This document shows positions 9,581 to 53,579 of a stretch of 64,000 nt of DNA, piece after piece. This DNA is from an uncultured Coriobacteriaceae bacterium. GTDB lineage: Bacteria; Actinomycetota; Coriobacteriia; Coriobacteriales; Eggerthellaceae. Position 1 is the stretch's first letter. Each line of letters begins with the position of its first letter. The DNA lies in the NCBI GenBank assembly GCA_949294735.1, contig CASFII010000007.1, positions 1 to 64,000 on the forward strand, read 5' to 3'. The notes below the pieces were generated by a model. The model ran no database searches and was not told the DNA's origin. It worked only from the letters and a program-made list of their open reading frames with translations. The position numbers and the translations under genes were made by a program.

Positions 9581-9581
9581 G

Positions 9582-14203: not shown

Positions 14204-14349
14204 ATCTACCTTCAACAGTACAATATCTGTGAGTTCTCAACCAGTTGGAAAGTATAGAGTAAGAAAAATTACTTGCATAGCGAAAAATAGAAAAATAATC
14301 GACTAGTTTACAAAAATTATAATCTCGTTCTCATTAAAAAAGAGATGAT

Positions 14350-14365
14350 TGTTTCACGTGAAACA
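14350..14365. promoter_or_regulatory. parS site 3 inside a 34-bp palindrome
   Basis: Exact parS core. The symmetry continues without mismatch to 34 bp (14341-14374, AGAGATGATTG on the left mirrored on the right). The longer palindrome may also fold as a terminator. Confidence 0.97.
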
Positions 14366-14408
14366 ATCATCTCTTGCATTGTAAAGAATAGAAAGTATTT
14401 CAAATCGA

Positions 14409-14424
14409 TGTTTCACGTGAAACA
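14409..14424. promoter_or_regulatory. parS site 4
   Basis: Exact parS palindrome 24 bp before the rsmG stop codon. The four sites occupy only about 305 bp of the 410-bp rsmG-parA gap; the rest of that gap is AT-rich and holds no gene. Confidence 0.97.
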
Positions 14425-14447
14425 TCTCATGAAGAACTACCTATTTT

Positions 14448-18619: not shown

Positions 18620-19432
18620 ATGAAAAACGAAATTGAAAACGGAAAAACCTTGAACGAAGCAGAAAAACAGAGCACAAATTTTCCAAATCTTTTAAATCAA
18701 TCTGAATGTCAGTTTGATTATTCTTTTGTGCCAACAACGGCTCGTATTGCTGTATATGATGATTTAAGAAGTGCGCCTCGTATTACTGAAATCCAACCAG
18801 CACCAACAACTGACTATATAGAACACCTGAGTTCAAAAATATATGAACAAGCAAAATTAGTAGGCGGTAAAATCCCCTACACTGTCATTCGTGAAGTGTC
18901 TGAAAACTTTATTCATGCACAATTTAGTGAAGTAGTTGTTTCTATATTGGATGAGGGAAACACTATTCGCTTTGCAGACCAAGGACCGGGAATTCAACAA
19001 AAAGAAAAGGCACAACTTCCAGGATTTAGTTCTGCCATAGAACCAATGAAACACTATATCCGTGGTGTTGGATCTGGCCTCCCTATTGTTAAAGACTACC
19101 TTGATTTGTCACAAGGCACTATCACGATAGAAGACAACTTAGGAACAGGCGCTGTGGTAACTATTTCCTTAGCACACAAACAACCTCAAGAAACGCCAAC
19201 TGTTCAACATATTCCTCTACCGCCTTTAACAGAACGCGAAAAAGAATTTATTAAACTTTTCGCGCGCGAGGGAGCTTTAGGAATCACTGATGTGACACAA
19301 ATGACTGATTATTCAAACTCAACCACCTACAACACTTTTTCACGTTTAGAAGAGGCAGGTATTATTGAAAAAAGCCTTGGTAAAAAACGTATTCTTACTA
19401 ACCTTGGTTTTCAAATCAGTAAAGCCTTATAA
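18620..19432 (+). CDS. Histidine-kinase-like ATPase with C-terminal winged-helix domain
   Basis: 270 residues. The middle part (about 80-185) is a GHKL/HATPase fold: N-box REVSENFIHA (91-100), G1 box ADQGPGI (about 118-124) and G2 box GVGSGLPIVKDYL (149-161), then GTITIEDNLGTGAVVTI. No phospho-acceptor histidine domain is seen. The end (about 202-265) resembles a winged helix (LTEREKEFIKLF, NSTTYNTFSRLEEAGIIEK). It is thus more like an anti-sigma-type ATPase joined to a DNA-binding module than a two-component kinase. It sits between the origin and dnaA, in the same direction, suggesting a regulatory role in initiation; that is inference. Confidence 0.75.
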   Translation: MKNEIENGKTLNEAEKQSTNFPNLLNQSECQFDYSFVPTTARIAVYDDLRSAPRITEIQPAPTTDYIEHLSSKIYEQAKLVGGKIPYTVIREVSENFIHAQFSEVVVSILDEGNTIRFADQGPGIQQKEKAQLPGFSSAIEPMKHYIRGVGSGLPIVKDYLDLSQGTITIEDNLGTGAVVTISLAHKQPQETPTVQHIPLPPLTEREKEFIKLFAREGALGITDVTQMTDYSNSTTYNTFSRLEEAGIIEKSLGKKRILTNLGFQISKAL

Positions 19433-19552
19433 ACTTTTTTAAACTTAAAAGAAATTACGCCTATAAATATTTTTGATTTTGCCCCACTATGGGCTTTTCG
19501 TTACAATCTTTCCTACTCTGGGGAACTAGTAATAAGTGTTTAGGTGAGAACA

Positions 19553-21070: not shown

Positions 21071-21094
21071 TAAACCTTAAAACCTTTAACTTCT

Positions 21095-21128
21095 AAGTCC
21101 TCTGAAACTCATTAATTTCAGAGGACTT
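21095..21128 (+). terminator. dnaA terminator
   Basis: A perfect 13-bp stem (AAGTCCTCTGAAA / TTTCAGAGGACTT) with an 8-nt loop and a following TTCTTTA tract, 24 nt after dnaA. Confidence 0.9.
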
Positions 21129-21417
21129 TCTTTATAAGTTAAGTTACAAACTTATGTTCGGAAGAAAAATAGTTAATAGATGACTGATATATGACTTATA
21201 AGTAGGTATTTCTTTAAGAAAGATAATATTACCGATATTTTTAGTTAATAAAAAATACTTGTTATAAGTCATTCTTAACCATAGATTTTTAACCTATGAA
21301 CTGGGAACATGTAAGTTATTAACAAATTAACTGAAGTTATTATTGTTATTACCTAATAATTAAATATTTAAAAAGAAGCTCTATAATAATGACCTCAAAA
21401 ACAATCAAAGGAGCATC
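21129..21417. other. AT-rich dnaA-dnaN spacer
   Basis: About 290 bp of very AT-rich sequence with repeated TTATAAGT/ACTTATAA words (near 21133, 21190 and 21262). I see no DnaA box that matches well and no gene. It must contain the dnaN promoter, and it could be a second unwinding segment of a bipartite origin. Confidence 0.5.
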
Positions 21418-22512
21418 ATGAAATTTAGTATCAACCAATCTGAATTACAAAACGCCTTATCGGTTGTAATGAAGGGTATTTCAACACGCTCAACCCTTCC
21501 AGTTTTAAGTGGTATTTTGCTTGAAGCTAAGGACGATGCTCTTGTTTTACAAACGACTGACCTTCAACTTTCTACTCAATATAAGGTTGCCGCTTTAATT
21601 GAAGAAGAAGGTAAAGCAGTTATTCCTGGTAAGTTATTTTCAGAAATTATTAAAAATTTAAGTGATGCAGCTGTTCATGTTGATGCTAATGAAGAACAAG
21701 CTCTTATTAGTTGTGATACTTCATCTTTTTCTTTGAAAACATTAAATCCGGATGATTTTCCTAGCTTTCCACACGTTGATATTTTGCAGCGCATTGAAAT
21801 TCCTTTTAATCAATTTAGTGCCATGGTTAAACGTGTTGCAAAATTGGTTTCAAAAGATGAATCGCGCGCTATCTTAACTGGTGTATTAATTAGTGTAGAA
21901 AATAATACGTTAAAGATGGTAGCTACTGACTCTTATAGGTTAGGTATCACTGAAGTAGAATTATCAAACCCTGTTGATGAATTCCAAGCAGTTATCTCTG
22001 GCAATTTCTTAACTGAAGTTGCTTCACTACCTAAGTCAGAACAAACTATTCAACTTGCGTTAGCTGAAAATCAAATTGTAGTCACGTGTGGCGATACTGT
22101 TCTTATTAATAGACGTATTGAAGGTAATTTTCCTAACTATCGCCAGCTGTTACCTCAAAGTTATATTACTCGCACAAAAATTGATGTAAATCGTTTAAGT
22201 GCAGCAGTTAAACGTACATCCCTTTTAGGATCCAGCGTTTCGCCTGTTAAGTTTGATATTAATGTAGCTTCTCAAACCGTACAGCTTTCAGCTGCTTCAC
22301 AAGATGTTGGATCTGCGCAAGAAACACTTCCTTGTGAAGTAGAAGGCAAAGACATTGAAATAGCCTTTAACTTCAATTACGTATTAGATGGTCTTTCTTC
22401 AGTTAATTCTGAAAAGGTATTTTTAGAAACAGTTTCTGGATTAAAACCAGGTATTTTCCGTGCAGAAGAAGAAAACTATCTCTACTTAGTTATGCCAGTA
22501 CGTATTGCTTAG
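21418..22512 (+). CDS. dnaN: DNA polymerase III beta subunit (sliding clamp)
   Basis: 364 residues in three clamp repeats; begins MKFSINQSELQNALSVV and ends with the clamp ending YLYLVMPVRIA. The RSTLPVLSGILLEA, LMKIVATDSYRL-type (LKMVATDSYRLGITE) and NRRIEGNFPNYRQLLP segments are diagnostic. AAAGGAGC precedes the ATG by six nt. It encircles DNA and tethers the replicative polymerase. recF follows after 21 nt in the same operon. Confidence 0.97.
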   Translation: MKFSINQSELQNALSVVMKGISTRSTLPVLSGILLEAKDDALVLQTTDLQLSTQYKVAALIEEEGKAVIPGKLFSEIIKNLSDAAVHVDANEEQALISCDTSSFSLKTLNPDDFPSFPHVDILQRIEIPFNQFSAMVKRVAKLVSKDESRAILTGVLISVENNTLKMVATDSYRLGITEVELSNPVDEFQAVISGNFLTEVASLPKSEQTIQLALAENQIVVTCGDTVLINRRIEGNFPNYRQLLPQSYITRTKIDVNRLSAAVKRTSLLGSSVSPVKFDINVASQTVQLSAASQDVGSAQETLPCEVEGKDIEIAFNFNYVLDGLSSVNSEKVFLETVSGLKPGIFRAEEENYLYLVMPVRIA

Positions 22513-22533
22513 TTATTTTTAGTAGAGCACTTA

Positions 22534-23670
22534 ATGAGTTTAAAAGTTCAAAACATTTTCTTTCGAAATTTTCGAAACTATTCTGAACTTTCTTTAAACA
22601 ACTTAGGTGCTCTTACTATTTTTGTTGGCCAAAATGCTATTGGTAAAACTAACATCATTGAAGGTATTCAGCTCTTAACTGCGCTTACTTCTTTTCGTAA
22701 TCCACTCTTACAACAACTTATTCAACAAGGAAAAGAAGAATCATATATAGCAACTGATGTAAGTGATGGTTCTCGTGAATTAACTATTGGTCTTCACATT
22801 AAAGAGCATAGTAAAAAGTATGTCGTAAACGGTAAGGGTAAACAGACACAAGATTTAAAGGGATTAATACCTAGTGTTTCATTTACACCTGATGATTTAT
22901 ATCTAATTAAAGGATCTATGTCTGAAAGAAGAAACGCTTTAGACGTTTTAGGTTCTCAACTTTCTTCTAATTATTATGTAATAAAAAAAGACTACGAAAA
23001 AATAATTAAACATAAAAATAAGCTACTTAAAGAAGAAGCATCAGATCTTTTATTAGATAGTATTGATGAAACACTTACTATTTGTGGAGCACAATTAAGC
23101 TGCTATAGAAGTTCACTACTTTCTAAATTAGCTCCATTATGTGCTGATTCTTATAAACAAATTATTCCAGGAGGAGAAGAATTATCGGTAACGTATATTC
23201 CGTCCTGGGAGGTCAAAAATTCAAAAAAATTTTCCCGCCCTTCTTCTGATATTACCAATAATGAAGTATTACAAAAAGACGCTGCTCGCGAGCTTCTTCA
23301 GACCGCGCTACATGGCGCGCGGTCTGAAGAGCGAGCGCGAAAACGTTCTGTCATAGGACCCCACGCAGATCACATTAATTTTGCGTTAAATAATTTAGAT
23401 GCCACAACTTTTGCTAGTCAGGGGCAACAACGTTCTATTGTTTTAGCCTATAAGCTTGCGGAAGTTCAAATGATTGAAGATCACCTACATCAGAAACCAA
23501 TCCTTTTGTTAGACGATGTTATGAGTGAACTTGATGAACAGCGCCGCACTTCATTAGTGTCGTTTTTAATGGAAGATACCCAAACATTTATTACGACTAC
23601 CAATTTACAATACTTCAATGATGGATTATTACAAAGGGCACAAATTGTTCAGCTACCTTTAGAAATTTAG
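22534..23670 (+). CDS. recF: DNA replication and repair protein RecF
   Basis: 378 residues of an SMC-like ATPase that helps load RecA at gaps. The N-terminal FRNFRNYSELSL and Walker A VGQNAIGKTNIIEGI, the ABC signature region ASQGQQRSIVLAYKLAE and Walker B PILLLDDVMSELDEQRR are all present. A GC-rich perfect 14-bp inverted repeat lies inside its coding sequence. The stop codon is embedded in another hairpin. Confidence 0.96.
   Translation: MSLKVQNIFFRNFRNYSELSLNNLGALTIFVGQNAIGKTNIIEGIQLLTALTSFRNPLLQQLIQQGKEESYIATDVSDGSRELTIGLHIKEHSKKYVVNGKGKQTQDLKGLIPSVSFTPDDLYLIKGSMSERRNALDVLGSQLSSNYYVIKKDYEKIIKHKNKLLKEEASDLLLDSIDETLTICGAQLSCYRSSLLSKLAPLCADSYKQIIPGGEELSVTYIPSWEVKNSKKFSRPSSDITNNEVLQKDAARELLQTALHGARSEERARKRSVIGPHADHINFALNNLDATTFASQGQQRSIVLAYKLAEVQMIEDHLHQKPILLLDDVMSELDEQRRTSLVSFLMEDTQTFITTTNLQYFNDGLLQRAQIVQLPLEI
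23295..23330. repeat. GC-rich inverted repeat inside recF
   Basis: TCTTCAGACCGCGC (23295-23308) pairs perfectly with 23317-23330 across an 8-nt loop. It encodes residues around LLQTALHGARSEER. Such a stem is out of keeping with the AT-rich gene around it. Confidence 0.8.
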
Positions 23671-23693
23671 CGCGCATGTAAGCGCTAAATTTC
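23662..23693 (+). terminator. Hairpin at the end of recF
   Basis: The perfect 11-bp stem GAAATTTAGCG / CGCTAAATTTC encloses the recF stop codon region. There is no long T-run after it, so it may terminate weakly or protect the mRNA end ahead of gyrB. Confidence 0.55.
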
Positions 23694-23841
23694 ATATGGT
23701 TACGTCCTAAACGGGAAATTTTTCTTACTTACCCATAAACACCCTGTGAAATAGGCTCTAAGTGTGCTTAAACGCTGTATTTCATAGCTTTATCATACTA
23801 TCCATGGTATAATAAATCGGTTCGATTACTAAGCGTTGTAG

Positions 23842-25818
<1,977 letters not shown>

Positions 25819-39218: not shown

Positions 39219-42200
39219 ATGTACCCGCGACTCATAGATAATAAAAGGCAAAACCTAGAATCTGTGCTTTCTGAGATTATAAATTCGGGTAAGTATAAGT
39301 ATTTGTCAATTGCTACGGGCTATTGGGACTTGCCTGGCATGATAGATATTATCGACGGTCTTGCAAAATTCAAGGGGATTAGACTCCTTATAGGGCAGGA
39401 ACCATTGCCTCATCGTCTCCAGAAATCACTTAAGCTCGACGAAAACAATCCCGACACATTGTTTCCAGATAAGAATTTTTCTTACGACCTCGAACGGCTT
39501 GGTAGAGAAGAAGAACACAAGGTCTCAGAATTACGTAACGTTGCTCGCAAACTTACGACTCTCATGAAGGATGGCAAGCTTGAAGTCAAAGTTTTTCGCA
39601 GACCAAGACTTCATGCAAAAGCTTACATCTTTGGTGAAATGGGGGCGTCAGAGGCAGTTGGTATTATAGGCTCGAGCAACTTTACTAAAGCCGGTCTCAC
39701 AAGCAATGCAGAGCTAAATTGGCTCGAACAGGATCAGCATTTTGTGTTATTCCAGCCCCAAAACGAGCAACAGGAGCATGGACATCTCAGTTGGTTCAAC
39801 GAAATGTGGGAGAACGAGGAAGCTGAACCATGGACAGGAACGTTCACTGAAATACTTGAAAAGAGTCCTGTTGGTGACATGATGTATGGCCCCTATGATG
39901 TCTACATTAAGACACTCATGGAGGTGTTTCCCGATGAACTACTTCCGCCTCAACGGCTTTCAGACGACACCCGTGACCCTCTTTTTGCATTTCAAGATCG
40001 CAATGCTGGTATCTTGCTGAACAAGCTACAGAAGATGGGTGTGGCGATGCTTTCGGACTCTGTTGGCCTCGGCAAGACCGTGACCGCTGGCGCCGTCGTC
40101 AAACACTATCGCGAGACCGGAGCACATCGTATCCTCGTGATAGCGCCTGCGGCACTCAAACAACAGTGGTATGACGACCTTGGAAAACACTTTGGACTTG
40201 ACGGCAATGACTTTTCCGTTATTTCGATGCAAAATACTTCTGAGCAGGAACGCCTTATTGATGAGATGCGAAAGCCCTGGGTTCGTGAAGTAGATCTTTT
40301 CGTTATTGACGAGGCTCACAATCTTCGAACGCCGTCAAGTACGCGTTATGAGACAATCTTACGTCTGCTCGACACGAGTCCGAATGCTCCTGTACTTTTG
40401 TTGACTGCTACTCCTATCAACAATAGTCTTATGGACTTCGCCAATCAAATTCAGCTTGGACTGCGCGGCAGCATGGTTTCTGTTCCTGTTCAGTATCGGA
40501 ATAATGATGATGTTGTCCAGAGTATCGATTTTATTGATGCTCTCAGGCAGATTCAGGCTGAAGCAAAGAAGGCGGAGAAAGCTGGCATAGCCTTCGATTG
40601 GAGCCGATACGACACGACACTAAGAAGCGGACTTAGACATTATCTGGTGCGCTCTACGCGACAAGGTGTCGAAGCGGAAGGAAGTCTCCAGAAAGGAGGC
40701 GTACAGCAGCACTTCCCGCGTACTACGGTGAAACAACTTACTTATCGATATGCTGATACCATTGTTGAGCAAGTCCACAATCTATGTTCCGTCGAGCAAA
40801 ATCAGCTATTTGAGGGCGTTGATCCTCTGCGTCTGAACCTAGACATTGCGTTGGAGATCACTCAGCAGACGATGCATCCCTTAGACCTTTTAGCGCCCAT
40901 TTTTGCAGGCAAAGGGAAGCCCGCAGCATTAGATGCCGTTGACGACCATGTCGCCCGCATGTTGTTTGAGCAGGAACAATCCCAGTCGCTGATTCCCGGA
41001 ATCTTTCAAATTATTAATTTTCTCGGCTTCGTCCCGTATAGACCTGATTTATACCGCCACCGTTACTATGGCAAGACTAAGGAGCAGATTCAGGATCTCG
41101 GCCTCAAGACAGAGGAACGAACTAAGTTAAACACTCAGCGAGCTATTCACAACATCTTGCACGTAACTTGGCTTAAGCGGCTTGAATCGTCTGCTGCTGC
41201 ACTCCTCAAATCTGTGAACTACTACAGCAAACGCCTTGACATATTCGAGAAGTATTTGGACAAGGGTTACATTGTTTCGCTTACGGATGCTGCCGAACTT
41301 GAATCGGAGTACGGAGAGGACTTGGAGAAGGCCTTTTCCGCTTATGAGCGTTCGACAAAAGCGCTTCAAGCGGCTCTCGATGCTGGGAAGGATATCTCTG
41401 GAATGAAGATTGAGGGTGTCGAAAAGCGCGAGGCGTCTTTTCAAGAATACAAAATCGAACAGCTCCGAAAAGACATTTCAAGGGATCGCGGTATCCTTCA
41501 CCTCCTACAAATTATTCTACAATATATGCAGGATTCAGACGTGAACGGTAAGGCACACGCTTTTGCCGACGAGGTCAAAAAACTCGTCGCAAACGCTGAC
41601 CACGGAAAGAAAGTTCTCGTATTTAGCTTCTTTGCTGACACGATAGACTATTTAAGGGAAACCATGCCCGCATTGATGATTGATGTCCCGAATTTTGGGA
41701 CGCGTAGCGCCTTTTTGACCGGCTCCAGTGGTGGAAAGACCGAAGAGATTGCTTGTAGATTTGCTCCTGTTGCTAAAAAGCATATCCTCAAGGACGGTGA
41801 AACAGAGATTGACTTCCTGTTTGCAACTGATGTTCTCTCAGAAGGGCAGAATCTCCAGGATGCTGGCATTCTTATCAACTATGACCTCCACTGGAACCCA
41901 GTGAGAATGATTCAGCGAAACGGACGCATCAATCGATTGGGCTCTGTCTATAAGGATGTCCAGATTGTTAATATGAAACCACACGACGATCTTGAGTTGT
42001 ATCTGAATCTTGTCAGACGTCTAGAGCGAAAAATTGACACCATTAAGAATAGTATCGGTACCGACCAGAGCATTCTTGGTGAGCAGGAAAACCCGATTGA
42101 GTTTGCTGATTTCTACAGCGAAGACGTTGCTAAAGCATCAAGTGCCGCCGAAGCTATCTCTGCATCCTCTCAGGCACTTGACGTATTCGACTCTGCCGAT

Positions 42201-42911
42201 GAATATATCTTCGAGCTGAGGCGTTTTTTGGACGAACACCAAGATGATGAAATCAGAAGAAGAATTGAGACAATACCATCAGGAAAATGGAACTATTTAC
42301 CTGAGAGAGAAATCCGTTTACTCGCAAGTCAGTCTGAAGGTTTCTTACCTGCTAAAACATACCTTGCCCTTGAACGAGTTGAGGGGCATAGTGCCATTTC
42401 GAACGAGCCATTTAATACAACTATGTTTGTCAAGGTGATCGCGACAGGCAGATATCCTGCAGAGATTGTCGAGGAAGTAGAGGCTCTTTCTGTAATAAAA
42501 ACAACGCCAGATGACAATAAGCTGCAACGCGACACAATTTCTTCGAACTTAAACCGAAGCAAAGTTTCCAAGCGTGCCAATAGGATGGCGCGGGTCAGAG
42601 CCGAAGCGATAGATAATCTAAGGACGATTCATCCTTCAGAGCAAAAGGCGCTCGTTGCCATACAGCCTTATCATCCCGGAGAAATTGACTTTCAAGGTCT
42701 TGTACGAAAAGGTATTCGCCGTGAACAGGATAATCGTGAGTTTAAACAAATCGTTAGGCTAATCAATAACGACGTAAAAGAACGCGGGGTCATTACTTCC
42801 TCGACAAACACGCGCTTCATTGCTCTCATGAACAAGCTTAGCGAACATGTCGCTGAAGAACACCGAGCAGATACTATTGAAGATGTACTCTTCTATGCGA
42901 GCAAAGAATAG
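39219..42911 (+). CDS. PLD-nuclease/SF2 helicase of a restriction-like defence system
   Basis: 1230 residues. The N-terminal third is a phospholipase D-like nuclease domain with one HxK (RLHAKAYIFGE, 131-139) followed by GSSNFTKAGL (151-160). The rest is an SNF2/HepA-type SF2 motor: SVGLGKT (281-287), VIDEAHNLR (362-370), LLTATPINN, then the second RecA domain with TDVLSEGQNLQDA and IQRNGRINRLGS (motif VI). Similar helicases accompany methyltransferases in DISARM (DrmD) and in unclassified DNA-modification systems. It probably translocates and cuts unmodified DNA. GAGGA precedes the ATG. The methyltransferase gene starts 11 nt later. Confidence 0.88.
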   Translation: MYPRLIDNKRQNLESVLSEIINSGKYKYLSIATGYWDLPGMIDIIDGLAKFKGIRLLIGQEPLPHRLQKSLKLDENNPDTLFPDKNFSYDLERLGREEEHKVSELRNVARKLTTLMKDGKLEVKVFRRPRLHAKAYIFGEMGASEAVGIIGSSNFTKAGLTSNAELNWLEQDQHFVLFQPQNEQQEHGHLSWFNEMWENEEAEPWTGTFTEILEKSPVGDMMYGPYDVYIKTLMEVFPDELLPPQRLSDDTRDPLFAFQDRNAGILLNKLQKMGVAMLSDSVGLGKTVTAGAVVKHYRETGAHRILVIAPAALKQQWYDDLGKHFGLDGNDFSVISMQNTSEQERLIDEMRKPWVREVDLFVIDEAHNLRTPSSTRYETILRLLDTSPNAPVLLLTATPINNSLMDFANQIQLGLRGSMVSVPVQYRNNDDVVQSIDFIDALRQIQAEAKKAEKAGIAFDWSRYDTTLRSGLRHYLVRSTRQGVEAEGSLQKGGVQQHFPRTTVKQLTYRYADTIVEQVHNLCSVEQNQLFEGVDPLRLNLDIALEITQQTMHPLDLLAPIFAGKGKPAALDAVDDHVARMLFEQEQSQSLIPGIFQIINFLGFVPYRPDLYRHRYYGKTKEQIQDLGLKTEERTKLNTQRAIHNILHVTWLKRLESSAAALLKSVNYYSKRLDIFEKYLDKGYIVSLTDAAELESEYGEDLEKAFSAYERSTKALQAALDAGKDISGMKIEGVEKREASFQEYKIEQLRKDISRDRGILHLLQIILQYMQDSDVNGKAHAFADEVKKLVANADHGKKVLVFSFFADTIDYLRETMPALMIDVPNFGTRSAFLTGSSGGKTEEIACRFAPVAKKHILKDGETEIDFLFATDVLSEGQNLQDAGILINYDLHWNPVRMIQRNGRINRLGSVYKDVQIVNMKPHDDLELYLNLVRRLERKIDTIKNSIGTDQSILGEQENPIEFADFYSEDVAKASSAAEAISASSQALDVFDSADEYIFELRRFLDEHQDDEIRRRIETIPSGKWNYLPEREIRLLASQSEGFLPAKTYLALERVEGHSAISNEPFNTTMFVKVIATGRYPAEIVEEVEALSVIKTTPDDNKLQRDTISSNLNRSKVSKRANRMARVRAEAIDNLRTIHPSEQKALVAIQPYHPGEIDFQGLVRKGIRREQDNREFKQIVRLINNDVKERGVITSSTNTRFIALMNKLSEHVAEEHRADTIEDVLFYASKE

Positions 42912-42922
42912 GAAACCAAGTT

Positions 42923-45900
42923 ATGCTGAAGAACGAATATGAAAAGATCGATAGACTTATTCGCTCCCTTCATTCTGAGACCAATCGTGATATGAGTCTT
43001 GACATTGCTATCGAAGCAGCTAACGAATTTATGCGCATTGTGTTTCCTAAGTCCGCCAAAGGTGAAAAATGGTCTGACGAACTCCTCGAGGGTGAAGATC
43101 TTTTGGATGAGACGATTCCGGTGTCAAGCTTTCCAAACCAGAAGGTCGAATCATGGTTCGAAAAACATCCCTATCTCGGCGGTGAACGTGTTGCAATGCG
43201 TCACTTTCATGATGATTTGGCGCCCATCGAGAGCAAGTTTTACTGGCTAAATAAGAGTTCGGCGAAGTCTCGTGTTGCAGCTGGCGTTAGCCTCACTCCA
43301 AACTGGGAGGACAGCGAGCTGACTAAATTTCCCTCCTACAAAGTAGGCATTGACTTCTTCTTGACTGCTGACGGAAACTCATTACTCGTCGCTATTAGTA
43401 ATGAAGGTAACCTGCGAGTCATGGAGCTCTCCGAAAGACTTTCAAACACTCAAATTGAAATCCTTCGCAATATTGATGGAGCTGCTGGCTTCGATGGAAT
43501 TGGCAATCTTGAGCCGCAACGAACCATTCATAAGACGCTTTGGGATGCCTTCTCGCTTAAGGAGGTCAACAAGAAGTTTTATGAGGGAGTGGCAGAACAT
43601 TTTCAAATTCTTCTACAGTATCTTCACGATAACGCGGGGAAATCGCAAGAGGAAGCAAAGCTTTTTGCGAACCGTCTCATTGGTCGTTTATTGTTCATCT
43701 GGTTCCTTCGCAAGAAGGGTTTTATTAACGAAGATATGGGATACTTTGATTGCAAGGGCATCCCTGCCAAGGAATACTACGAAGAATGCCTTAAACCTCT
43801 CTTTTTTCAGACACTTAACATGCCTGCTGATGAAAGGCATGCAATCGGTGAAAAATACGATTATTTTACGCCATTTCTCAACGGTGGTCTTTTCGACGCC
43901 AAACCAGGTGATTGGATCGATGAGATGGTGGACTTTCCACCTGACTGGTTTGAGTCTCTTTACGCCCATTTCGAAGAGTTCAATTTTACAACAGACGAAT
44001 CGACACCGGAATACGAACAGGTTGCGATTGATCCTGAGATGCTTGGTCGTGTATTTGAAAACCTTCTTGCCGCGCAGCTTGATGAGACCGGCAAAGAAGC
44101 TCGTAAGGCGAGTGGCTCCTTTTACACTCCACGCGAGATTGTCGCCTATATGTGTAAGGAGTCCCTACGGGAATACTTATACGATGTTTTTGGTACAGAA
44201 GGTTCACGGTCAGGTGTTGATCGCCTGTTGGATATGTCTGATCAGGATTTTGAGGTTAAGCATTCCGATGCAAAAAAGAGCCTTTGGGGTGTTGAGCGCA
44301 CTGTTGAGATGACAAATAAGGCAATACATGCCCTCGATGAACTTAAAATTGTTGACCCCGCTTGTGGTTCGGGAGCCTTTCCCATGGGCATGCTTCAACT
44401 TCTCACCAAGATGTACAACCGACTCGGTTCGGGGCTTAATTCTTATGATATGAAACTTCGGATACTCGGCAACAATATATACGGCATTGACGTCCAGCCT
44501 ATGGCAGTGGAGATATCTCGTCTACGCGCTTGGCTTAGCCTTGTGGTCGATGAGAGTAACCCGAAGAACGTTCGTCCGCTGCCGAACCTTGATTTCAAGT
44601 TCGTATGCGCAAACACGCTCGTGCCTCTTGTGGAAGATGAGCCTCAAATGACGCTCTTCGATGATTTTAATAATGAAGCTTTGGAGCGTCTTGACTCAAT
44701 TATGGGACAGGGTTATTACACAGCCACTGATCCCCAGGAAAAAAAGCGTCTAAGAGAAGAATATCGATATGCAGTTATTGCTCTTGAGGAAGAAAGCAGC
44801 GCACAAGGAAGCAGGCGGCTCAAGCAGCGAATGGGGTGGAATCCTTTCGACTCAAGTCAGAGTTCGGACTTCTTCGATACTAAGGTCATGTTCAATCTAT
44901 CACGTGGCTTTGATATAGCTATTGGCAATCCTCCGTATATCCAGCTGCAAAAGATGCAGACAGAGATGAAAAAACTATATGAGACGCTAGGCTACGACAC
45001 ATATGAAAGCACAGGGGATATCTATGCGCTATTCTATGAACGAGGTATAGAACTTCTTCGTCCAAATGGGATTCTTTGCTATATCACATCGAACAAATGG
45101 ATGCGCGCTGCATACGGAGAATCCCTTAGGAATTTCTTCCTTTCAAAAACCAGCCCAATTACTTTAATTGACTTTGCAGGTACAAAAGTATTTGAGTCGG
45201 CAACCGTGGATGTCAACATCTTGATTACTAAAAAATCAAATAGTGCTGGCTTTGTCGCTTCAACTATCATTCGTGATGATTGCCGTAACAATATGAGCGA
45301 TTATATTAGGCAGCATGCTGTCAAGAACACCTTCTCAAAGGGTGAGAGCTGGGTTATTCTTAGCGAAATTGAAAAGAGCATCAAGAAGAAGATTGAAACA
45401 GCAGGCGTTCCGCTAAGAAACTGGGATGTTAAAATCAATCGAGGTGTACTCACTGGATGCAATGAAGCTTTCATCATCGACGGTGCAACAAAGGACAGAC
45501 TCATTGCTGAGGATTCGAAGTCTGCCGAACTTATTCGACCGATTCTCCGTGGCAGAGACATCAAGCGATATGGCTATGAGTTCGCTGATCAATGGCTTAT
45601 CGCAACTTTCCCTGCTAGACATTACGAAATTGAAAACTATCCAGCCATACAGGCTTTTTTGGGCGGATTTCGCCCAAAGTTAGAGCAGACTGGGCTTCCT
45701 CTGACGAACCAGGAACGAGAAAGCGTGGCAAAACATGCTGCAAAATATCACATTACAATGTCATCAAAAGATTTGATTAAAGCCCGAAAGAAAACCAGCA
45801 ACAGATGGTTTGAAACGCAAGACACGATTGCTTATTGGGACGATTTCTCTAAGCAGAAAATTGTCTGGGGTAACCTATGTCTTCAATCACAGTTCGCATT

Positions 45901-46234
45901 AGCTGACGAGGGCTATTTCATAAATGCCCCTTCCCCGCTAATTACACCAGGATACACGTGGCTTCTTGCGATACTAAATTCCAGAGCAGCTGATTGGTAC
46001 ATTCGCTCTCTTGGGGTAACTAGAAATGGTGGCTACTTTGAATATAAACCGATGTTTGTCGAACGCTTACCCCTACCTGATTTGACGCACGCGCAAAAAG
46101 AACAACTCAGTTACTATGCAGCATTGTTAATTGAAAGCGAAGGAAACAACACTGCAGTAGAAACAGCGATAGACGAAATCGTGTTCGATATTTATGGCTT
46201 GAATGTAAACGAAAGAGAGTATCTGCTTCGATAG
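42923..46234 (+). CDS. Eco57I-like adenine methyltransferase with switchable specificity region
   Basis: 1103 residues. The catalytic core has GSFYTPREIVAYM, SAM motif I in VDPACGSGAFPMGML (about 477) and the N6-adenine motif NPPY in AIGNPPYIQL (about 669). The C-terminal part is a TaqI/PglX-type specificity region (PLRNWDVKINRGVLTGCNEAF, then KQKIVWG and LNSRAADWYI). From residue 792 the coding sequence lies in an invertible segment: two perfect repeats (45295-45406 and 45467-45601) recur inverted at 46903-47209. The architecture recalls PglX of BREX, but no other brx/pgl gene is here. It should modify host DNA and direct the helicase-nuclease. Confidence 0.9.
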   Translation: MLKNEYEKIDRLIRSLHSETNRDMSLDIAIEAANEFMRIVFPKSAKGEKWSDELLEGEDLLDETIPVSSFPNQKVESWFEKHPYLGGERVAMRHFHDDLAPIESKFYWLNKSSAKSRVAAGVSLTPNWEDSELTKFPSYKVGIDFFLTADGNSLLVAISNEGNLRVMELSERLSNTQIEILRNIDGAAGFDGIGNLEPQRTIHKTLWDAFSLKEVNKKFYEGVAEHFQILLQYLHDNAGKSQEEAKLFANRLIGRLLFIWFLRKKGFINEDMGYFDCKGIPAKEYYEECLKPLFFQTLNMPADERHAIGEKYDYFTPFLNGGLFDAKPGDWIDEMVDFPPDWFESLYAHFEEFNFTTDESTPEYEQVAIDPEMLGRVFENLLAAQLDETGKEARKASGSFYTPREIVAYMCKESLREYLYDVFGTEGSRSGVDRLLDMSDQDFEVKHSDAKKSLWGVERTVEMTNKAIHALDELKIVDPACGSGAFPMGMLQLLTKMYNRLGSGLNSYDMKLRILGNNIYGIDVQPMAVEISRLRAWLSLVVDESNPKNVRPLPNLDFKFVCANTLVPLVEDEPQMTLFDDFNNEALERLDSIMGQGYYTATDPQEKKRLREEYRYAVIALEEESSAQGSRRLKQRMGWNPFDSSQSSDFFDTKVMFNLSRGFDIAIGNPPYIQLQKMQTEMKKLYETLGYDTYESTGDIYALFYERGIELLRPNGILCYITSNKWMRAAYGESLRNFFLSKTSPITLIDFAGTKVFESATVDVNILITKKSNSAGFVASTIIRDDCRNNMSDYIRQHAVKNTFSKGESWVILSEIEKSIKKKIETAGVPLRNWDVKINRGVLTGCNEAFIIDGATKDRLIAEDSKSAELIRPILRGRDIKRYGYEFADQWLIATFPARHYEIENYPAIQAFLGGFRPKLEQTGLPLTNQERESVAKHAAKYHITMSSKDLIKARKKTSNRWFETQDTIAYWDDFSKQKIVWGNLCLQSQFALADEGYFINAPSPLITPGYTWLLAILNSRAADWYIRSLGVTRNGGYFEYKPMFVERLPLPDLTHAQKEQLSYYAALLIESEGNNTAVETAIDEIVFDIYGLNVNEREYLLR
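45295..45406 (+). repeat. Inverted repeat IR1, expressed copy
   Basis: 112 bp identical, base for base, to the reverse complement of 47098-47209. It includes the perfect palindrome CAGCATGCTG (45311-45320), a candidate recombinase crossover site. The reading frame is the same in both copies. Confidence 0.97.
45467..45601 (+). repeat. Inverted repeat IR2, expressed copy
   Basis: 135 bp identical to the reverse complement of 46903-47037. It is separated from IR1 by a 60-bp variable block in both copies. Confidence 0.97.
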
Positions 46235-46323: not shown

Positions 46324-47208
46324 TCAGTGAGATCCAAGCTTATTCATAGCCAATATGAAATTCCGCTCTTCTTGATCAAAATCAAATCGATCAAAAATCA
46401 CTTCGTCAAGTCTATTGCGTATAGCACTTTGATTGCCAGACAAAAGTAAGCCGAGCAACTCTTTCATCCGCTTTTCGTCACTATGAGATATTGGCGGAAT
46501 TGGCAGTAACTCAACTAGGTATTTCTTCCATCTTAAAGTACCCATTCCGGTTGTAGTTCCGTACTTCGCAAAGAAATATTCTGAATAGGATGAGTTTAGA
46601 TAACAAAGTAGATATTCAAGGTGACTTCCCGTTATCATGAAAACAGTTGCCTCCGGACTAAACTCCCCCTCCAAATCAATCGCAAACTTGGGAGTATCCG
46701 ATATTTCACCCCAGACAATCTTCTGCTTATCTAAATCGTCCATATAAGCGCAATTCCTTAAGTTGTAAGGGGTAACGCCTTTGTCTCCGCGTTTTGAGAT
46801 AACATCCCAATATTGATTAAGGTGACGCTTTATCGCGGGATAGAGAGAAACGTCAACAGGAGGAATTGTTCGTCCATTACTCTTGTATCCATTGTGCGTA
46901 GTGATAAGCCATTGATCAGCGAACTCATAGCCATATCGCTTGATGTCTCTGCCACGGAGAATCGGTCGAATAAGTTCGGCAGACTTCGAATCCTCAGCAA
47001 TGAGTCTGTCCTTTGTTGCACCGTCGATGATGAAAGCGTCGTTACAGCCAGTCTTAATCCCATAATTGATGCTGATATTCCAATCACGGAGAGGTTTGCC
47101 TGCTGTTTCAATCTTCTTCTTGATGCTCTTTTCAATTTCGCTAAGAATAACCCAGCTCTCACCCTTTGAGAAGGTGTTCTTGACAGCATGCTGCCTAATA
47201 TAATCGCT
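46324..47208 (-). pseudogene. Silent inverted cassette for the methyltransferase C-terminus
   Basis: The minus strand is open for 294 codons without a start codon of its own, beginning in the frame of residue 792 of the methyltransferase. It encodes SDYIRQHAVKNTF as in the expressed copy, a different 20-residue block (KPLRDWNISINYGIKTGCND), the shared FIIDGATKDRL region, and then an unrelated recognition part (TTHNGYKSNGRTIPP ...), ending in LAMNKLGSH. Inversion across IR1 would replace 312 residues with these 294, giving a 1085-residue protein. It is not a decayed gene but a stored alternative. Confidence 0.92.
46903..47037 (-). repeat. Inverted repeat IR2, silent copy
   Basis: Exact 135-bp inverted match to 45467-45601, within the silent cassette. 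Crossing-over here would exchange only the recognition part beyond it. Confidence 0.97.
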
Positions 47209-47209
47209 C
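47098..47209 (-). repeat. Inverted repeat IR1, silent copy
   Basis: Exact 112-bp inverted match to 45295-45406, with the CAGCATGCTG palindrome at 47184-47193. It ends 27 bp before the recombinase start codon, so the recombinase gene stays outside the invertible segment. Confidence 0.97.
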
Positions 47210-47236: not shown

Positions 47237-47851
47237 ATGAATTACGGCTATATTCGCGTAAGCAGTGACAAACAGACTGTCGAAAACCAAAGATTCGAAA
47301 TATCCAGGTTTGTCGAGCAATCCGGACTCACTATTGATGGCTGGATAGAGGAAACCATAAGTGGTGCTAAAAACTACGATAAACGAAAACTCGGAAACCT
47401 ATTGAAGAAAGTCAGCAGGGGAGATTTAATCATTTGTGCAGAGCTGTCTCGCCTTGGAAGAAACCTTTTCATGATAATGGAAATCTTAAACATCTGTATG
47501 ACCAAGGGGTGCAGGGTCTGGACAATCAAAGACAACTATCGGCTTGGAGACGACATTCATAGCAAGGTGTTGGCATTTGCGTTTGGGCTTTCTGCCGAAA
47601 TAGAGAGGGAACTCATCAGCCAGAGGACAAAAGAGGCATTGGCTCGTAAGCGCGCCGAAGGCGTCGTTCTTGGGCGACCAAAGGGAAGACAATCTTCTAA
47701 GGTGAAACTATCTGGTAAGGAAGCTCTAATTAGGGGACTTCTTGATGAGAACGTTTCTCAAAGTGAAATTGCACGCATACTAAAAGTGAATCGTGCAACA
47801 GTCAAAAGATTCATTGATACGCGATTGGATATAGAAATTACAGTAAGTTGA
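47237..47851 (+). CDS. Serine recombinase / DNA invertase (Mpi-like)
   Basis: 204 residues. The resolvase domain starts MNYGYIRVSSDKQTVENQRFEI; Ser9 in YIRVS is the predicted nucleophile. LSRLGRNLFMIMEIL and AFAFGLSAEIERELISQRTKEAL match the family, and GRPKGRQSSK leads to a helix-turn-helix (SQSEIARILKVNRATVKRFID). The small size and sequence resemble the Mpi master invertase group. It faces away from the silent cassette, 27 bp from IR1, and is the obvious agent of inversion. AAGGAG precedes the ATG. Confidence 0.93.
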   Translation: MNYGYIRVSSDKQTVENQRFEISRFVEQSGLTIDGWIEETISGAKNYDKRKLGNLLKKVSRGDLIICAELSRLGRNLFMIMEILNICMTKGCRVWTIKDNYRLGDDIHSKVLAFAFGLSAEIERELISQRTKEALARKRAEGVVLGRPKGRQSSKVKLSGKEALIRGLLDENVSQSEIARILKVNRATVKRFIDTRLDIEITVS

Positions 47852-48093: not shown

Positions 48094-48867
48094 ATGGGAA
48101 ACAGCAGGCCAGAATTCAAAGAGCTTGATGTCTGGATTGTCGAAGTTTTAGTAAGGCGTCTGCAAGAAAAGGGTAGCGTCATCACTTATTCAGATTTGGC
48201 TAAGGAAGTCAAATCGGAAAAAGATTGTCCACCAATTAATCCACATGTTTCGTTTAACCACCCATTAGGACGAATACAGAAAGCTTGTTTTGAGGTAGAC
48301 GTGCCGTGCATTCCGGTTATGGTTGTAGGTAAGACAGGAATGAAGCCAGGTACGGGATTTGTTGCAGCTTACAAGGAGATTCATCCCGAACAAGGTGATG
48401 AAGACGAAAAGGCCATTGCAAAAAAAGAGTGGGAAAGGGTTCGAGAGTGTCGGAATTGGCAGCCTCTTCTTGACTATTACGGAATCGAGTTAGAGTTTAT
48501 TGCTCCAAAGAACTATAAGATTGAAAGAATCGCAGAGGAAAGCTACAAGGAAAGCTCAAAAATCGTCGAAAAGATAAGTAAGGAAATTGCCCGTAATCCC
48601 GAAGCACGAAAACGTTGTTTGGAACTCAAGGGCACCAGCTGTGTGGTGTGTGGATTTGACTCCGAAAGTCTGTATGGAATTCCCGGTGTCATACATGTTC
48701 ATCACTTGAAGCCGTTATCTGAGGAGTTAAAAACAAGAGGTGAAGTTATCACTGATCCTGTAAAAGATTTAGTGCCTGTTTGTCCAAATTGCCATGCTCT
48801 TATACATAGCAAAGGGTCAAGGAACGAGTGCTATAGCATCGAAGAAGCTAAAGCTATAATCAATTGA
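48094..48867 (+). CDS. HNH endonuclease, possible restriction nuclease
   Basis: 257 residues. The N-terminal 150 residues (FKELDVWIVEVLVRRLQEKG, then HPLGRIQKACFEVDVPCIPVMVV) form a domain I do not recognise. The C-terminal part is an HNH nuclease with a zinc site: CVVCGF, IHVHHLKPLSEE, LVPVCPNCHALIHS. Such McrA-like proteins often cut modified or foreign DNA. It follows the recombinase by 242 nt. AAGGAG before the ATG indicates its own ribosome-binding site. Confidence 0.85.
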   Translation: MGNSRPEFKELDVWIVEVLVRRLQEKGSVITYSDLAKEVKSEKDCPPINPHVSFNHPLGRIQKACFEVDVPCIPVMVVGKTGMKPGTGFVAAYKEIHPEQGDEDEKAIAKKEWERVRECRNWQPLLDYYGIELEFIAPKNYKIERIAEESYKESSKIVEKISKEIARNPEARKRCLELKGTSCVVCGFDSESLYGIPGVIHVHHLKPLSEELKTRGEVITDPVKDLVPVCPNCHALIHSKGSRNECYSIEEAKAIIN

Positions 48868-48925: not shown

Positions 48926-49588
48926 ATGAGTGGCGTAATCTATATTCTTACAAATCCATCTTTTCCCGATTATGTAAAAATTGGTTATGCTGATGATATT
49001 GGAAAACGACTTCAACAGTTGAACCGCAGCGAGTGCATCCCTTTTGCTTTTAGAGTTTACGCAACTTATGAGGTTGATTCTCGTTTGTCAGATTTAAAAA
49101 TTCATAGCATTATTGATAAACTAAATCCAAATTTACGTTCAATAGAAAACTTCAACGGGAAGAAAAGAGTTAGAGAGTTCTATGCGATGGACCCCGAAGA
49201 TGCCTTTGCTATTCTTGAGGCTATTGCAGAGATTAACGGCCACAGGGACAAACTGAAGCTCGTGCCTCCCAACGAAGAAGAGCTTGAAGCGGCTGATATT
49301 GCTGAGGATATAGAAGAACAGAAATCTGAAAGACTTGCTCCATTTGCTTTTTCTCTCTGCAATATTCCAATTGGTGCAACCATAGAATATTGCAACAGGG
49401 CTGATGAGAAGTCAGGTTTAACTTGTGTTGTTGTAGATGATCATGGCGTTGAATATGATGGCAAAAGGTGGTCTCTATCAGCCTTGGCGTCTATGCTAAC
49501 TCAATCAAAATGGGGTGTAGCAGGACCAAGGTATTTTAAATATAAGGGCGAGTGGCTAAACGACATAAGAAGGCGTTTGGGCAATTGA
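48926..49588 (+). CDS. GIY-YIG nuclease with DUF4357 C-terminal domain
   Basis: 220 residues. The N-terminus GVIYILTNPSFPDYVKIGYADDIGKRLQQLN is the GIY-YIG/T5orf172 form (Y-x-L and V-K-I-G-Y with the catalytic Arg in KRLQQL). The C-terminal 60 residues (GLTCVVVDDHGVEYDGKRWSLSALASMLTQ, then YFKYKGEWLNDIRRRL) look like DUF4357, often found at the end of restriction-type proteins. It follows the HNH gene by 58 nt and may be a partner or a separate defence nuclease. Confidence 0.83.
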   Translation: MSGVIYILTNPSFPDYVKIGYADDIGKRLQQLNRSECIPFAFRVYATYEVDSRLSDLKIHSIIDKLNPNLRSIENFNGKKRVREFYAMDPEDAFAILEAIAEINGHRDKLKLVPPNEEELEAADIAEDIEEQKSERLAPFAFSLCNIPIGATIEYCNRADEKSGLTCVVVDDHGVEYDGKRWSLSALASMLTQSKWGVAGPRYFKYKGEWLNDIRRRLGN

Positions 49589-50555: not shown

Positions 50556-50580
50556 TTGCAGAGCAGTGACAAACTGACCA
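50555..50580. repeat. Partial solo copy of the CRISPR-like repeat
   Basis: GAGCAGTGACAAACTGAC here matches the core of the mini-array repeat at 49705 except for its first base; the flanks have diverged. Confidence 0.55.
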
Positions 50581-50711
50581 TCACTCTCATTCAGAGACAA
50601 CCAGGCTCTCTCGCAACAGAAGCAATACCTAAACCCATGCCGAATTCTTTGAGGCGGTCCTGTCCATGGGATATAATTCAAGCACATGACCGAAAAGTGC
50701 TTGGAGTCGCA

Positions 50712-51626
50712 ATGACCGCTGAATGCCCTAACGATTTCCCTTACGAAGTCGCATCGAGCACCTCAAGTTCCGAGGTTCGAGCGACTTATTGGAAAGTTGC
50801 TTCAGGTCTGCAGGAGGTCGACGGTCTTACACCTTCCCCTTATATGAAAACGGTTGCGCAGGAATACATTGCAGGCAAGCGGTCTGCCGCCGAAATCAGC
50901 GAGCTAATCAAGGTCTACTACCGCAAAAGATTGGCCTCTCAAACGACAGACACAACCGCCACCCGAGCAAATACCGAACTTGAGGCAGACGCCGTAAGTT
51001 GCCGCATCGTTGAGATTCTTGATCGCAACGCCTTCATATTCGCGCCTTTTATGTTAGACGACATCCATCAGCAGCTCTTTCAAGATCTCGACTCAAGCAT
51101 TTATCAGCCCGGTCGACACAAGACCGAGCAGCTGGTAAAAAGCGAACTGATTCTCAACGGCGACAGCGTGCTCTACGCTGATCCCTCCATGGTCGAACGG
51201 GCACTTTCGTTCGCATTCACAGAGGAGGAAGCCTACGCGTACGCCGCCGAATTCGACGACGCGCAAATCGACCACCTGTCGCGTTTTGTAGCGCGCTTGT
51301 GGCAGATTCATCCATTTTGCGAGGGAAACACGCGAACTGTCGCAGTGTTTACTATTCTCTATCTGAAGCATTTGGGGTTCGATGCCAACAATGAGCCGTT
51401 TGAAAATCATGCTCGCTACTTCCGCGACGCCCTGGTGCGTGCGAACTACCGAAACGCCAAAGCAGAAGCTCTCCCTGACCGGACGTTCCTCAATCGTTTC
51501 TTCGAGAATCTACTTGCTGGCGGGAAGAACGAACTGCGTTCCCGCGACCTCATGGTTCAAGCACTCTTCGACAACCCAACGCTCCTGCGTAACGTTGAGC
51601 TGTCGAAAGCCATTAATGCTCAGTAG
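50712..51626 (+). CDS. Fic-domain protein (probable AMP-transferase)
   Basis: 304 residues from the ATG at 50712. I choose this over the longer frame because TTGGAG lies upstream, a TATAAT box lies at 50671-50676, and the longer frame runs through the solo repeat. The Fic motif is HPFCEGNTR (about residue 200), with the catalytic His, Asn and Arg intact. N-terminal residues 35-75 (VDGLTPSPYMKTVAQEYIAGKRSAAE) resemble a VbhA-type inhibitory domain, suggesting self-inhibition. The target is unknown. Confidence 0.85.
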   Translation: MTAECPNDFPYEVASSTSSSEVRATYWKVASGLQEVDGLTPSPYMKTVAQEYIAGKRSAAEISELIKVYYRKRLASQTTDTTATRANTELEADAVSCRIVEILDRNAFIFAPFMLDDIHQQLFQDLDSSIYQPGRHKTEQLVKSELILNGDSVLYADPSMVERALSFAFTEEEAYAYAAEFDDAQIDHLSRFVARLWQIHPFCEGNTRTVAVFTILYLKHLGFDANNEPFENHARYFRDALVRANYRNAKAEALPDRTFLNRFFENLLAGGKNELRSRDLMVQALFDNPTLLRNVELSKAINAQ

Positions 51627-52064: not shown

Positions 52065-52478
52065 ATGACCAAGCAGACCTTCGGCTCCACCATAGCGGCC
52101 CTTCGGAAAGAAAAGGGCATGACCCAACAGGAACTTGCTCAAAATATGGGCGTCACCGACAAAGCGGTTTCGAAGTGGGAACGCAACCTTTCGTTCCCCG
52201 ATGTTGCGTCGCTTCCCAGGCTTGCTGAACAGCTTGGTGTCACGGTTGACGAATTGCTCGAGGCGAAAACCTCCGCGCAAGAAGAATCTTCCCAAGGCAA
52301 GGTTCTCGCGCTTGCCGAATTGGTCCTTAAAGCCGTTGCGCTTGCTATGGGCGTAGGTGTGGTGGCGCTTACTATCATGGACGAAGTTGATCCAAAAAAC
52401 GCGCTTTGCCTGCTTGGCATTGGGCTTGCTTGCCTTGCTCTTGTCCAGCTTACGAGTGAAGGCGACCGAAGCGAATAA
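52065..52478 (+). CDS. XRE-family regulator with membrane segments
   Basis: 137 residues. A Cro/CI helix-turn-helix at residues 5-65 (IAALRKEKGMTQQELAQNMGVTDKAVSKWERN, LAEQLGVTVDELLEAK) is followed by a linker and two hydrophobic helices (about 84-104 and 115-130). It is a small membrane-bound or membrane-associated regulator as often seen in Firmicutes and Coriobacteriia. AAGAAAGGA precedes the ATG. Confidence 0.85.
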   Translation: MTKQTFGSTIAALRKEKGMTQQELAQNMGVTDKAVSKWERNLSFPDVASLPRLAEQLGVTVDELLEAKTSAQEESSQGKVLALAELVLKAVALAMGVGVVALTIMDEVDPKNALCLLGIGLACLALVQLTSEGDRSE

Positions 52479-52503
52479 CACGCTTTCGCGCGACAGTTCT
52501 GCG

Positions 52504-52539
52504 GTTTTGAAGCAGTAACAAACCGACGGGTATTCAAAC
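52504..52539. repeat. Solo full-length CRISPR-like repeat
   Basis: A 36-nt copy beginning GTTTTGAAGCAGT and ending GGGTATTCAAAC. Its ends GTTTGAA-type and TTCAAAC are inverted. It stands alone, about 2.7 kb from the mini-array. Confidence 0.55.
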
Positions 52540-52700
52540 GATAAAAGAAATTTGAAGAAGACAATGGCTCACAAGCAGTTGTCGGTCACTACCGTATGGG
52601 ATAAGAGGAAAATGAGATAATGATTTTGTACCTATAAGCTCAGGGCAACATAAACGCAGAGTGCAGGGTGCAGGACAACTAACGCACGACGGAGGCGACA

Positions 52701-52967
52701 GTGGGCGGATTTACGTTTATGGCGGCGCTAGCAACGGCCGGCATTCTTGTTGCTATCTTCTTTGCTGCGCTTGCGGTGTTCATTGTGGCAACCGTCATAT
52801 CCATCGTTTTTGCCGCACGCACAAAAAAGCGCCGTGAACAGGGGAAACCACTCGGCGCTCTTATTGCCATTCCTATAGTTCTCTACGTGCTAAGTGCGCC
52901 TACCGTGCTGTTTGGCCTGACTACGGTAGTTATTCCTTCTTACATTGAATCTGTCACCACCACTTAG
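52701..52967 (+). CDS. Small membrane protein, possibly the first part of an ankyrin protein
   Basis: 88 residues with a GTG start and GGAGG ten nt upstream. Two long hydrophobic helices (about 5-38 and 53-80) flank a basic loop (RTKKRREQGK). The frame continues after its TAG directly into the ankyrin ORF, so the two could once have been one gene. I recognise no family. Confidence 0.6.
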   Translation: MGGFTFMAALATAGILVAIFFAALAVFIVATVISIVFAARTKKRREQGKPLGALIAIPIVLYVLSAPTVLFGLTTVVIPSYIESVTTT

Positions 52968-53009
52968 AATGACTGCACTTCGGCAGTTGTTAAACATAAT
53001 CCTGAAGAA

Positions 53010-53579
53010 TTGGAGCGCTTTTTGGAGGATTCGTCGCTTCAGGTGCCTGATGATGGCGAAGAATCTTACAGAAGCCTTGTGCGTCTTGCCATTGAATATG
53101 GTGACGAAGAGTGTGTCGAAGTGCTGCTGAACGACGCCGAAGAAAAGAGCAGCCCAGTAGATTTGAACGTCCCTTTGGATGAATACAACGACGAAGGTGT
53201 GGTGACTGGCGCAGAATACGCTCTGGCTATGGCTACTGATCTATTCTTTTTCAGCTCGGTCGATATGATTCAGGTTCTTCTTGAGTACGGTGCCAATGTA
53301 AACGTGCTAGACGAATACGGCAACACACCTCTTTACAACGCTTGTTCAGGATTTTGCTCAAACAAGTTTAACGATGAACCCGAGCAACTTGTTGAAACCG
53401 AAGAGGTCATTGATGTACTTCTTGAGGCTGGTGCTGACACTTCAGCAATAAACGAAGAAGGCCTGACTCCGTGGGATGCGTACCAGCAAACCATTCGTGA
53501 ATATGAAGAATTGGGTGCTATTACGTCGGAAGAGGCGGCGGCCCTGCTTTCTGAACGCTCGGAAACGCTGAAGCCCTAA
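53010..53579 (+). CDS. Ankyrin-repeat protein with uncertain start
   Basis: About 189 residues if translation begins at the TTG at 53010. The frame is open back to the stop at 52965 (reading NDCTSAVVKHNPEELERF). Ankyrin units are seen in VRLAIEYGDEECVEVLLND, MIQVLLEYGANVNVLDEYGNTPLYNACSG and VIDVLLEAGADTSAINEEGLTPWDAY. The protein is acidic and probably binds another protein. There is no good ribosome-binding site or ATG, and it is in frame with the small membrane protein, so it may be the broken-off end of a longer gene. Confidence 0.6.
   Translation: MERFLEDSSLQVPDDGEESYRSLVRLAIEYGDEECVEVLLNDAEEKSSPVDLNVPLDEYNDEGVVTGAEYALAMATDLFFFSSVDMIQVLLEYGANVNVLDEYGNTPLYNACSGFCSNKFNDEPEQLVETEEVIDVLLEAGADTSAINEEGLTPWDAYQQTIREYEELGAITSEEAAALLSERSETLKP

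Follow-up and report, generated by a model that had tools for sequence, protein, structure and literature searches.

We analysed a 64,000-nucleotide stretch (the window) of contig CASFII010000007.1, from an uncultured Coriobacteriaceae bacterium, for a putative restriction-modification (R-M) locus. Two genes on the forward strand form its core: a PLD nuclease-Snf2 ATPase, the putative restriction/translocation subunit (39219-42911, 1230 aa), and a Type IIG-like gamma-class N6-adenine methyltransferase with the active target recognition domain (TRD) (42923-46234, 1103 aa). Both open reading frames (ORFs) are intact and separated by a gap of 11 nt. Behind them lie a silent TRD cassette on the reverse strand (46324-47209) and a serine invertase gene of the Mpi family on the forward strand (47237-47851, 204 aa). 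A first-pass annotation had described a compact two-gene system at 39219-46234, with the nuclease fused to the helicase. The two genes and the fusion (PLD and SNF2/Helicase_C domains in one chain) were found as described. The boundary is too narrow, as the cassette and the invertase belong to the same unit.

The PLD-like domain of the helicase (aa 21-175, positions 39279-39743, forward strand) matched Pfam PLDc_2 with 33.1 bits (cut-off 27) and RE_NgoFVII exactly at its cut-off. SNF2-rel_dom and Helicase_C were also found; the Snf2 motor is complete. Among 31 helicase homologues, the PLD residues H132 and K134 (HxK motif), N154 and E165 were invariant, and so were the motor residues K286 (Walker A lysine), D364-E365-H367 and QRxGRxxR. 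The fold model scored Z ~20 against solved Snf2 ATPases. The Snf2 core dominated the fold comparison of the whole helicase, and SauUSI was found only at rank 50 of the Foldseek list. As each chain has a single HxK motif, two PLD domains would have to dimerise to complete the active site, by analogy with BfiI, SauUSI and CglI. A search of phage records with the helicase gave no match.

The methyltransferase has a constant part, made up of an N-terminal and a catalytic domain (aa 1-790, positions 42923-45292, forward strand), and a C-terminal TRD. Its Pfam domains were Eco57I (145 bits) and TaqI_C, and the motifs DPACGSG and NPPY were invariant or nearly so in ~30 homologues. The first-pass annotation had labelled it a PglX-type methylase. 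In PADLOC, the protein scored 816 bits for Type IIG RM, 97 for PglX and 79 for DrmMI, so the Type IIG-like class fits better, and profile scores ruled out plain PglX as the closest relation. Against the BREX-1 PglX model, the score was 105 bits (cut-off 500). The structure model (pLDDT 85) had its best fold match in CamA (TM-score 0.77 by CamA length), followed by PglX, BseCI and MmeI; BpuSI was matched as well. Overall, PglX is a more distant relation of the methyltransferase than Type IIG enzymes, CamA and BseCI are. The N-terminal domain had no conserved PD-(D/E)xK motif across the family. The PLD domain of the partner protein is therefore the only recognised nuclease.

The silent cassette is a minus-strand open frame of 305 codons that repeats the C-terminal domain of the methyltransferase and has its own TaqI_C match. 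It stays in register with the methyltransferase from site 1 (see below) to its own stop and has no start for the full frame. Gene and cassette share an inverted repeat of 312 bp with 91% identity (left arm 45295-45606, forward strand; right arm 46898-47209, reverse strand). The repeat is a mosaic of 112 identical bp, ~60 divergent bp and 135 identical bp, after which the copies diverge; in the left arm, the exact blocks lie at 45295-45406 and 45467-45601. The invertase directly behind the cassette has a Resolvase domain and matched the Mpi-family model NF009949 of NCBIfam with 332 bits (cut-off 272).

Exact inverted repeats of distant loci narrow down to three places, namely the codons for SDY(I/V)RQ, RPILRGR and DDFSKQK. 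In the window, these are putative recombination site 1 at the TRD start (45298-45313, CGATTATATTAGGCAG, SDYIRQ codons), site 2 (45540-45555, CGATTCTCCGTGGCAG, RPILRGR codons) and site 3 (45841-45856, CGATTTCTCTAAGCAG, DDFSKQK codons), all on the forward strand. Their inverted partners lie on the reverse strand at 47191-47206 (site 1), 46949-46964 (site 2) and 46723-46738 (site 3, within the silent cassette). The motif CGATTN6RGCAR is common to all three sites. It has six matches in the window, exactly the three inverted pairs, where 0.8 were expected, and none of 100 shuffles reached six; the motif was derived from these same alignments, and the two repeat arms are not independent counts. Of the 12 matches genome-wide, only the six of the window cluster. 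The CGATT part is missing at the site codons of most cassette-free homologues. The starting point of the silent cassette differs between loci: it is site 1 in this locus, Olsenella and Lactococcus, site 2 in a Bacteroidetes bacterium and in locus L058, and site 3 in Bifidobacterium.

With its three site pairs, the TRD falls into three modules, so two full-length TRD states are very likely and up to eight are possible. An in silico inversion at any of the pairs leaves the methyltransferase frame open, and repeated inversion gave eight distinct proteins of 1078-1110 aa, all open. In module 1, residues R840 and L843 align by sequence with Gln346 and Ile349 of CamA, and the silent copy has Y and K at these positions. 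In the CamA-DNA structure, Gln346 and Ile349 read the A3:T3 base pair (PMC8187626). Module 2 lines up with further CamA contacts at 425-455, and module 3 with contacts at 473 and 517, in regions where the alignment is weak. With CamA contacts opposite all three modules, each module probably adds base contacts.

The closest comparison for the two orientations is Olsenella sp. KGMB02461, a member of the same order with a helicase 86% identical to that of this locus. Its locus is on two contigs, both ending inside the invertible segment. The silent TRD of the window was 79% (module 2) and 89% (module 3) identical to the active TRD of Olsenella, and the active TRD of the window was 76% and 90% identical to the silent one of Olsenella. 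The two active TRDs compared with each other reached only 55% and 44%. Module 3 of Olsenella was covered over 38-39 residues only. Between the Lactococcus plasmids pJM1F and pUCCL629A, module 1 is exchanged with 97% identity in both directions. Module 2 is exchanged as well, with 89% in the direction that was measured and the opposite direction judged by eye. In a third Lactococcus plasmid, pUCCL635A, modules 1 and 2 are of different kinds. Between Bifidobacterium saimiriisciurei and B. rousetti, module 3 was exchanged (63-68%, vs ~32-37% between the copies within one genome).

The exchanged copies of this locus and Olsenella had a pN of 0.12 at a pS of 0.69-0.76. By this comparison, the active and silent TRD copies are both under purifying selection. 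As the exchanged copies differ little at nonsynonymous sites, the silent copy is kept functional. Such upkeep is to be expected only of a copy with occasional expression.

A layout of the same four parts was found in two Lactococcus plasmids, one Clostridia bacterium, three Bifidobacterium species, one Bacteroidetes bacterium and one IMG/VR contig. When the loci are placed on the helicase tree, those with a cassette fall mainly into one clade of Bacillota and Actinomycetota, with many host- or food-associated members. The presence of the cassette changed state at least five times on this tree (quick method; several long branches). The helicase-methyltransferase pair occurs without a cassette in two Lactococcus plasmids, which means that the pair can stand alone. 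Compared with L008, the dairy plasmid loci L094 and L095 illustrate that the pair occurs both accompanied by cassette and invertase and on its own; the flanking genes of L095 and L008 are also the same, which amounts to a natural locked variant. A more distant locus in Prevotella nigrescens (L135, NZ_CP082843 377000-395000) carries at 2668-14494 a helix-turn-helix (HTH) regulator, the PLD-Snf2 helicase, the methyltransferase, two minus-strand silent Eco57I/TRD cassettes and an Mpi-type invertase 68% identical to that of the window. There, the crossover position is a different one, with a 47-bp repeat close to the NPPY codons. In three assemblies (L011, L014 and L018), the contig ends inside the TRD of this methyltransferase; for Olsenella, a second contig supplied the other end. 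Broken TRDs in draft genomes may be a marker of invertible loci. A genus search around B. saimiriisciurei (nine genomes) gave nothing further.

A scan of one genome per species yielded 80 helicase relatives. For the neighbourhood, 51 loci with a clear helicase (>230 bits) and >1 kb of downstream sequence were counted by hand. In 46 of them, the methyltransferase follows directly behind the helicase, within ~37 nt. These loci span Actinomycetota, Bacillota, Bacteroidota, Omnitrophota, Patescibacteria and others. Clustering of neighbouring ORFs gave three main recurrent partners and otherwise only small clusters of three loci. The partners were a Cro/C1-type HTH gene that abuts or overlaps the start of the helicase gene (13 Bacteroidota loci, among L030-L050), a serine recombinase family (12 loci; some upstream genes counted here are unlikely to be the invertase) and an antisense TRD (eight loci). 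The position of the HTH gene is reminiscent of R-M controller proteins. In the window, an extra controller gene was rejected: the 536 bp upstream of the helicase have no Cro/C1-type HTH ORF, and promoter-like matches there are at chance level.

No DUF499, PglZ or DrmB gene recurs among the neighbours of the homologous loci. PglZ, DUF499 and the MZB/DUF1998 domain of DrmB are also absent from the 1.34-Mb genome (86% complete), and ten further genes of the window, most within ~15 kb of the pair, had no defence core gene among them; the first-pass annotation had likewise seen no drmAB, pglZ, brxC or brxL gene in the window. That annotation had taken the pair for DISARM and BREX parts reduced to two genes. 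Homologues that always occur with further genes would have pointed to decay; the check was negative, since the nearest relatives are two-gene loci across many phyla, with no additional defence gene recurring. Rather than a decayed locus, the pair is a two-gene family in its own right, and a widespread one.

The pair as such had been described before. On plasmid pLd8 of Lactococcus lactis FM03P, orf33-orf34 were reported in 2018 as a putative Type II R-M system with DISARM-like domains, and the available description likewise gives a PLD-SNF2 helicase and a Type IIG-like methyltransferase with TaqI_C (PMC6098607). The same available text describes no invertible TRD, silent cassette or invertase (PMC6098607). 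Adjacent co-directional PLD-Snf2 and Eco57I/TaqI_C methyltransferase genes, as on pLd8, were present in the window and in 46 of the 51 loci. Among the papers searched, no account of this operon together with an invertase was found. Milman, Yelin and Kishony reportedly predicted in 2023 inversions in Type II R-M genes generally, which may include this family. We regard the pair as a known but little-described restriction-type module and its invertible TRD as a new variant of phase-variable R-M.

Inverted repeats, a silent TRD and an adjacent recombinase place the locus with the R-M systems of invertible specificity. In phase-variable Type I R-M (hsdS inversion, e.g. in Streptococcus pneumoniae, PMC4948785), inverted repeats and a recombinase likewise swap active and silent TRDs. 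Type I phase variation shuffles a separate HsdS and has HsdR as restriction subunit; in this locus, a single-chain methyltransferase carries the TRD at its C-terminal end, and PLD-Snf2 takes the place of HsdR. The locus is thus not Type I: the TRD is fused to the methyltransferase, and the nuclease is a PLD and not the PD-(D/E)xK of HsdR. A gamma-methyltransferase and a TRD in one chain are as in Type IIG, without the N-terminal PD-(D/E)xK nuclease of that class.

In Type ISP enzymes (LlaGI, LlaBIII), a nuclease, a translocase, a gamma-methyltransferase and one TRD cooperate on a half-site, but all in a single chain with an Mrr-like nuclease (PMC3874165); here, two ORFs encode two chains, and the nuclease is a PLD. 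SauUSI (PMC7913695) and CglI/NgoAVII (PMC4267653, PMC5737866) couple an ATP-dependent nuclease with a helicase-like motor. The PLD nuclease and the motor of SauUSI share one chain, as here, and SauUSI targets modified DNA via its own recognition domain and has no methyltransferase (PMC7913695). In CglI/NgoAVII, unlike here, nuclease and motor are separate proteins (PMC4267653, PMC5737866). The Type-2 BREX-related Hma-type systems also combine an HKD (PLD) nuclease-Snf2 helicase fusion with an N6-methyltransferase; they have a DUF499 ATPase and nearly always DUF3780 (PMC12839542), and DUF499 is neither in the genome nor recurrent in the loci. DISARM would require DrmA/DrmB with the DrmC PLD protein and a methylase; no MZB match was found in the genome, and the helicase scored 159 bits against the DrmD model (cut-off 610). 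BREX, with PglZ, BrxC and PglX, does not apply to a genome without PglZ.

Taken together, an ATP-dependent two-protein R-M system whose specificity is switched by programmed inversion is the probable explanation, and we hold it with good confidence. The methyltransferase would recognise a short, probably asymmetric sequence via its C-terminal TRD and methylate an adenine there. On unmodified DNA, the same TRD would position the PLD-Snf2 protein, which would translocate with ATP; the DNA would be cut by the PLD dimer, and methylation would protect the host sites. This cycle of recognition, translocation and cutting is likely by analogy with Type ISP (PMC3874165), SauUSI (PMC7913695) and CglI (PMC5737866). 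The Mpi-type invertase would recombine the inverted CGATTN6RGCAR sites, so that the active and the silent TRD change places. Host sites newly exposed by a flip would have to be methylated before they are cut. The earlier suggestion of a minimal restriction system with its specificity in the switched methylase is supported at this level. An extended form, in which one invertase exchanges three base-reading modules independently (up to eight specificities, with module 1 alone altering the recognition of one base pair), agrees with all of the evidence and has in our view somewhat less than an even chance.

The anatomy, the conserved operon, the repeats and sites, the open frames after inversion, the exchanged states and the selection on both copies can be read from the sequence. 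Complex formation, methylation, cleavage and flipping in cells are steps that we infer. Several points weigh against this explanation. The site motif was identified by inspecting the alignments themselves. The sites also fall in stretches that encode conserved protein motifs, so coding constraint may account for some of their likeness. Exchanged states were seen between related genomes and plasmids, not within one culture. That sites 2 and 3 are used independently here is suggested by the mosaic repeat and by relatives, namely the pUCCL635A recombinant of modules 1 and 2 and the Bifidobacterium cassettes that begin at site 3.

The locus might instead be foremost an epigenetic switch (phasevarion), in which inversion re-patterns genome methylation and the helicase is regulatory or weakly restricting. 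Phase-variable Type I systems alter methylomes and phenotypes (PMC4948785), and CamA, the closest solved relative of the methyltransferase, is an orphan methyltransferase. This is unlikely, however: even divergent homologues show no change in the PLD and ATPase residues, and the operon retains its helicase gene. Moreover, most homologues are without any cassette, so switching cannot be the core function. A BREX-like exclusion, i.e. a modification-dependent block of phage replication without DNA cleavage, would agree with the distant likeness to PglX in sequence and fold. With no PglZ or DUF499 gene in the genome or among the conserved neighbours, and a PLD nuclease with complete catalytic residues fused to the motor, we consider it very improbable.

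About as little, or slightly less, can be said for the inverted copy being a dead duplicate, with the invertase acting elsewhere. Flipping is read from sequence comparison, which leaves some room for this view; the open 305-codon frame, the purifying selection and the exchanged states in relatives speak against it, as do a site motif that is paired nowhere else in the genome and the same layout in eight other loci. Decay from DISARM, BREX or Hma with loss of the other genes, which the domain types in common with the DrmD, DrmMI, HmaA and PglX models might suggest, was rejected as having next to no probability in view of the two-gene homologous loci in many phyla, the absent core genes, the intact motifs and the low pN.

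Annotation files this widespread two-gene restriction family under Type IIG, although its nuclease would sit in an unsuspected partner. In this gut-type bacterium, a single methyltransferase gene next to an invertase could produce as many as eight DNA specificities. The locus offers a testable example of DNA specificity assembled from exchangeable sub-domain modules, the first of which aligns with the base-reading residues of CamA. Should the modules act independently, the recognition code would be directly readable from the methylomes of natural orientation variants. Switchable restriction also bears on the phage resistance of dairy starter plasmids, where the operon naturally occurs with or without the cassette.

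Downstream of the invertase follow genes for an HNH protein (48094-48867), a T5orf172/GIY-YIG-like protein (48926-49588; PADLOC PDC-S57, 319 bits) and a Fic protein with a VbhA-like part (50556-51626; PDC-S72, 249 bits). With these genes beside the pair, the locus looks like a small defence island. An HTH_3 regulator gene and then an ankyrin-repeat gene lie at 52065-53579. At 18001-24000, the window has a low G+C content (32-36%) and carries dnaA, dnaN and a recF/SMC-like gene; it likely spans the replication origin, which would place the R-M locus ~18 kb away.

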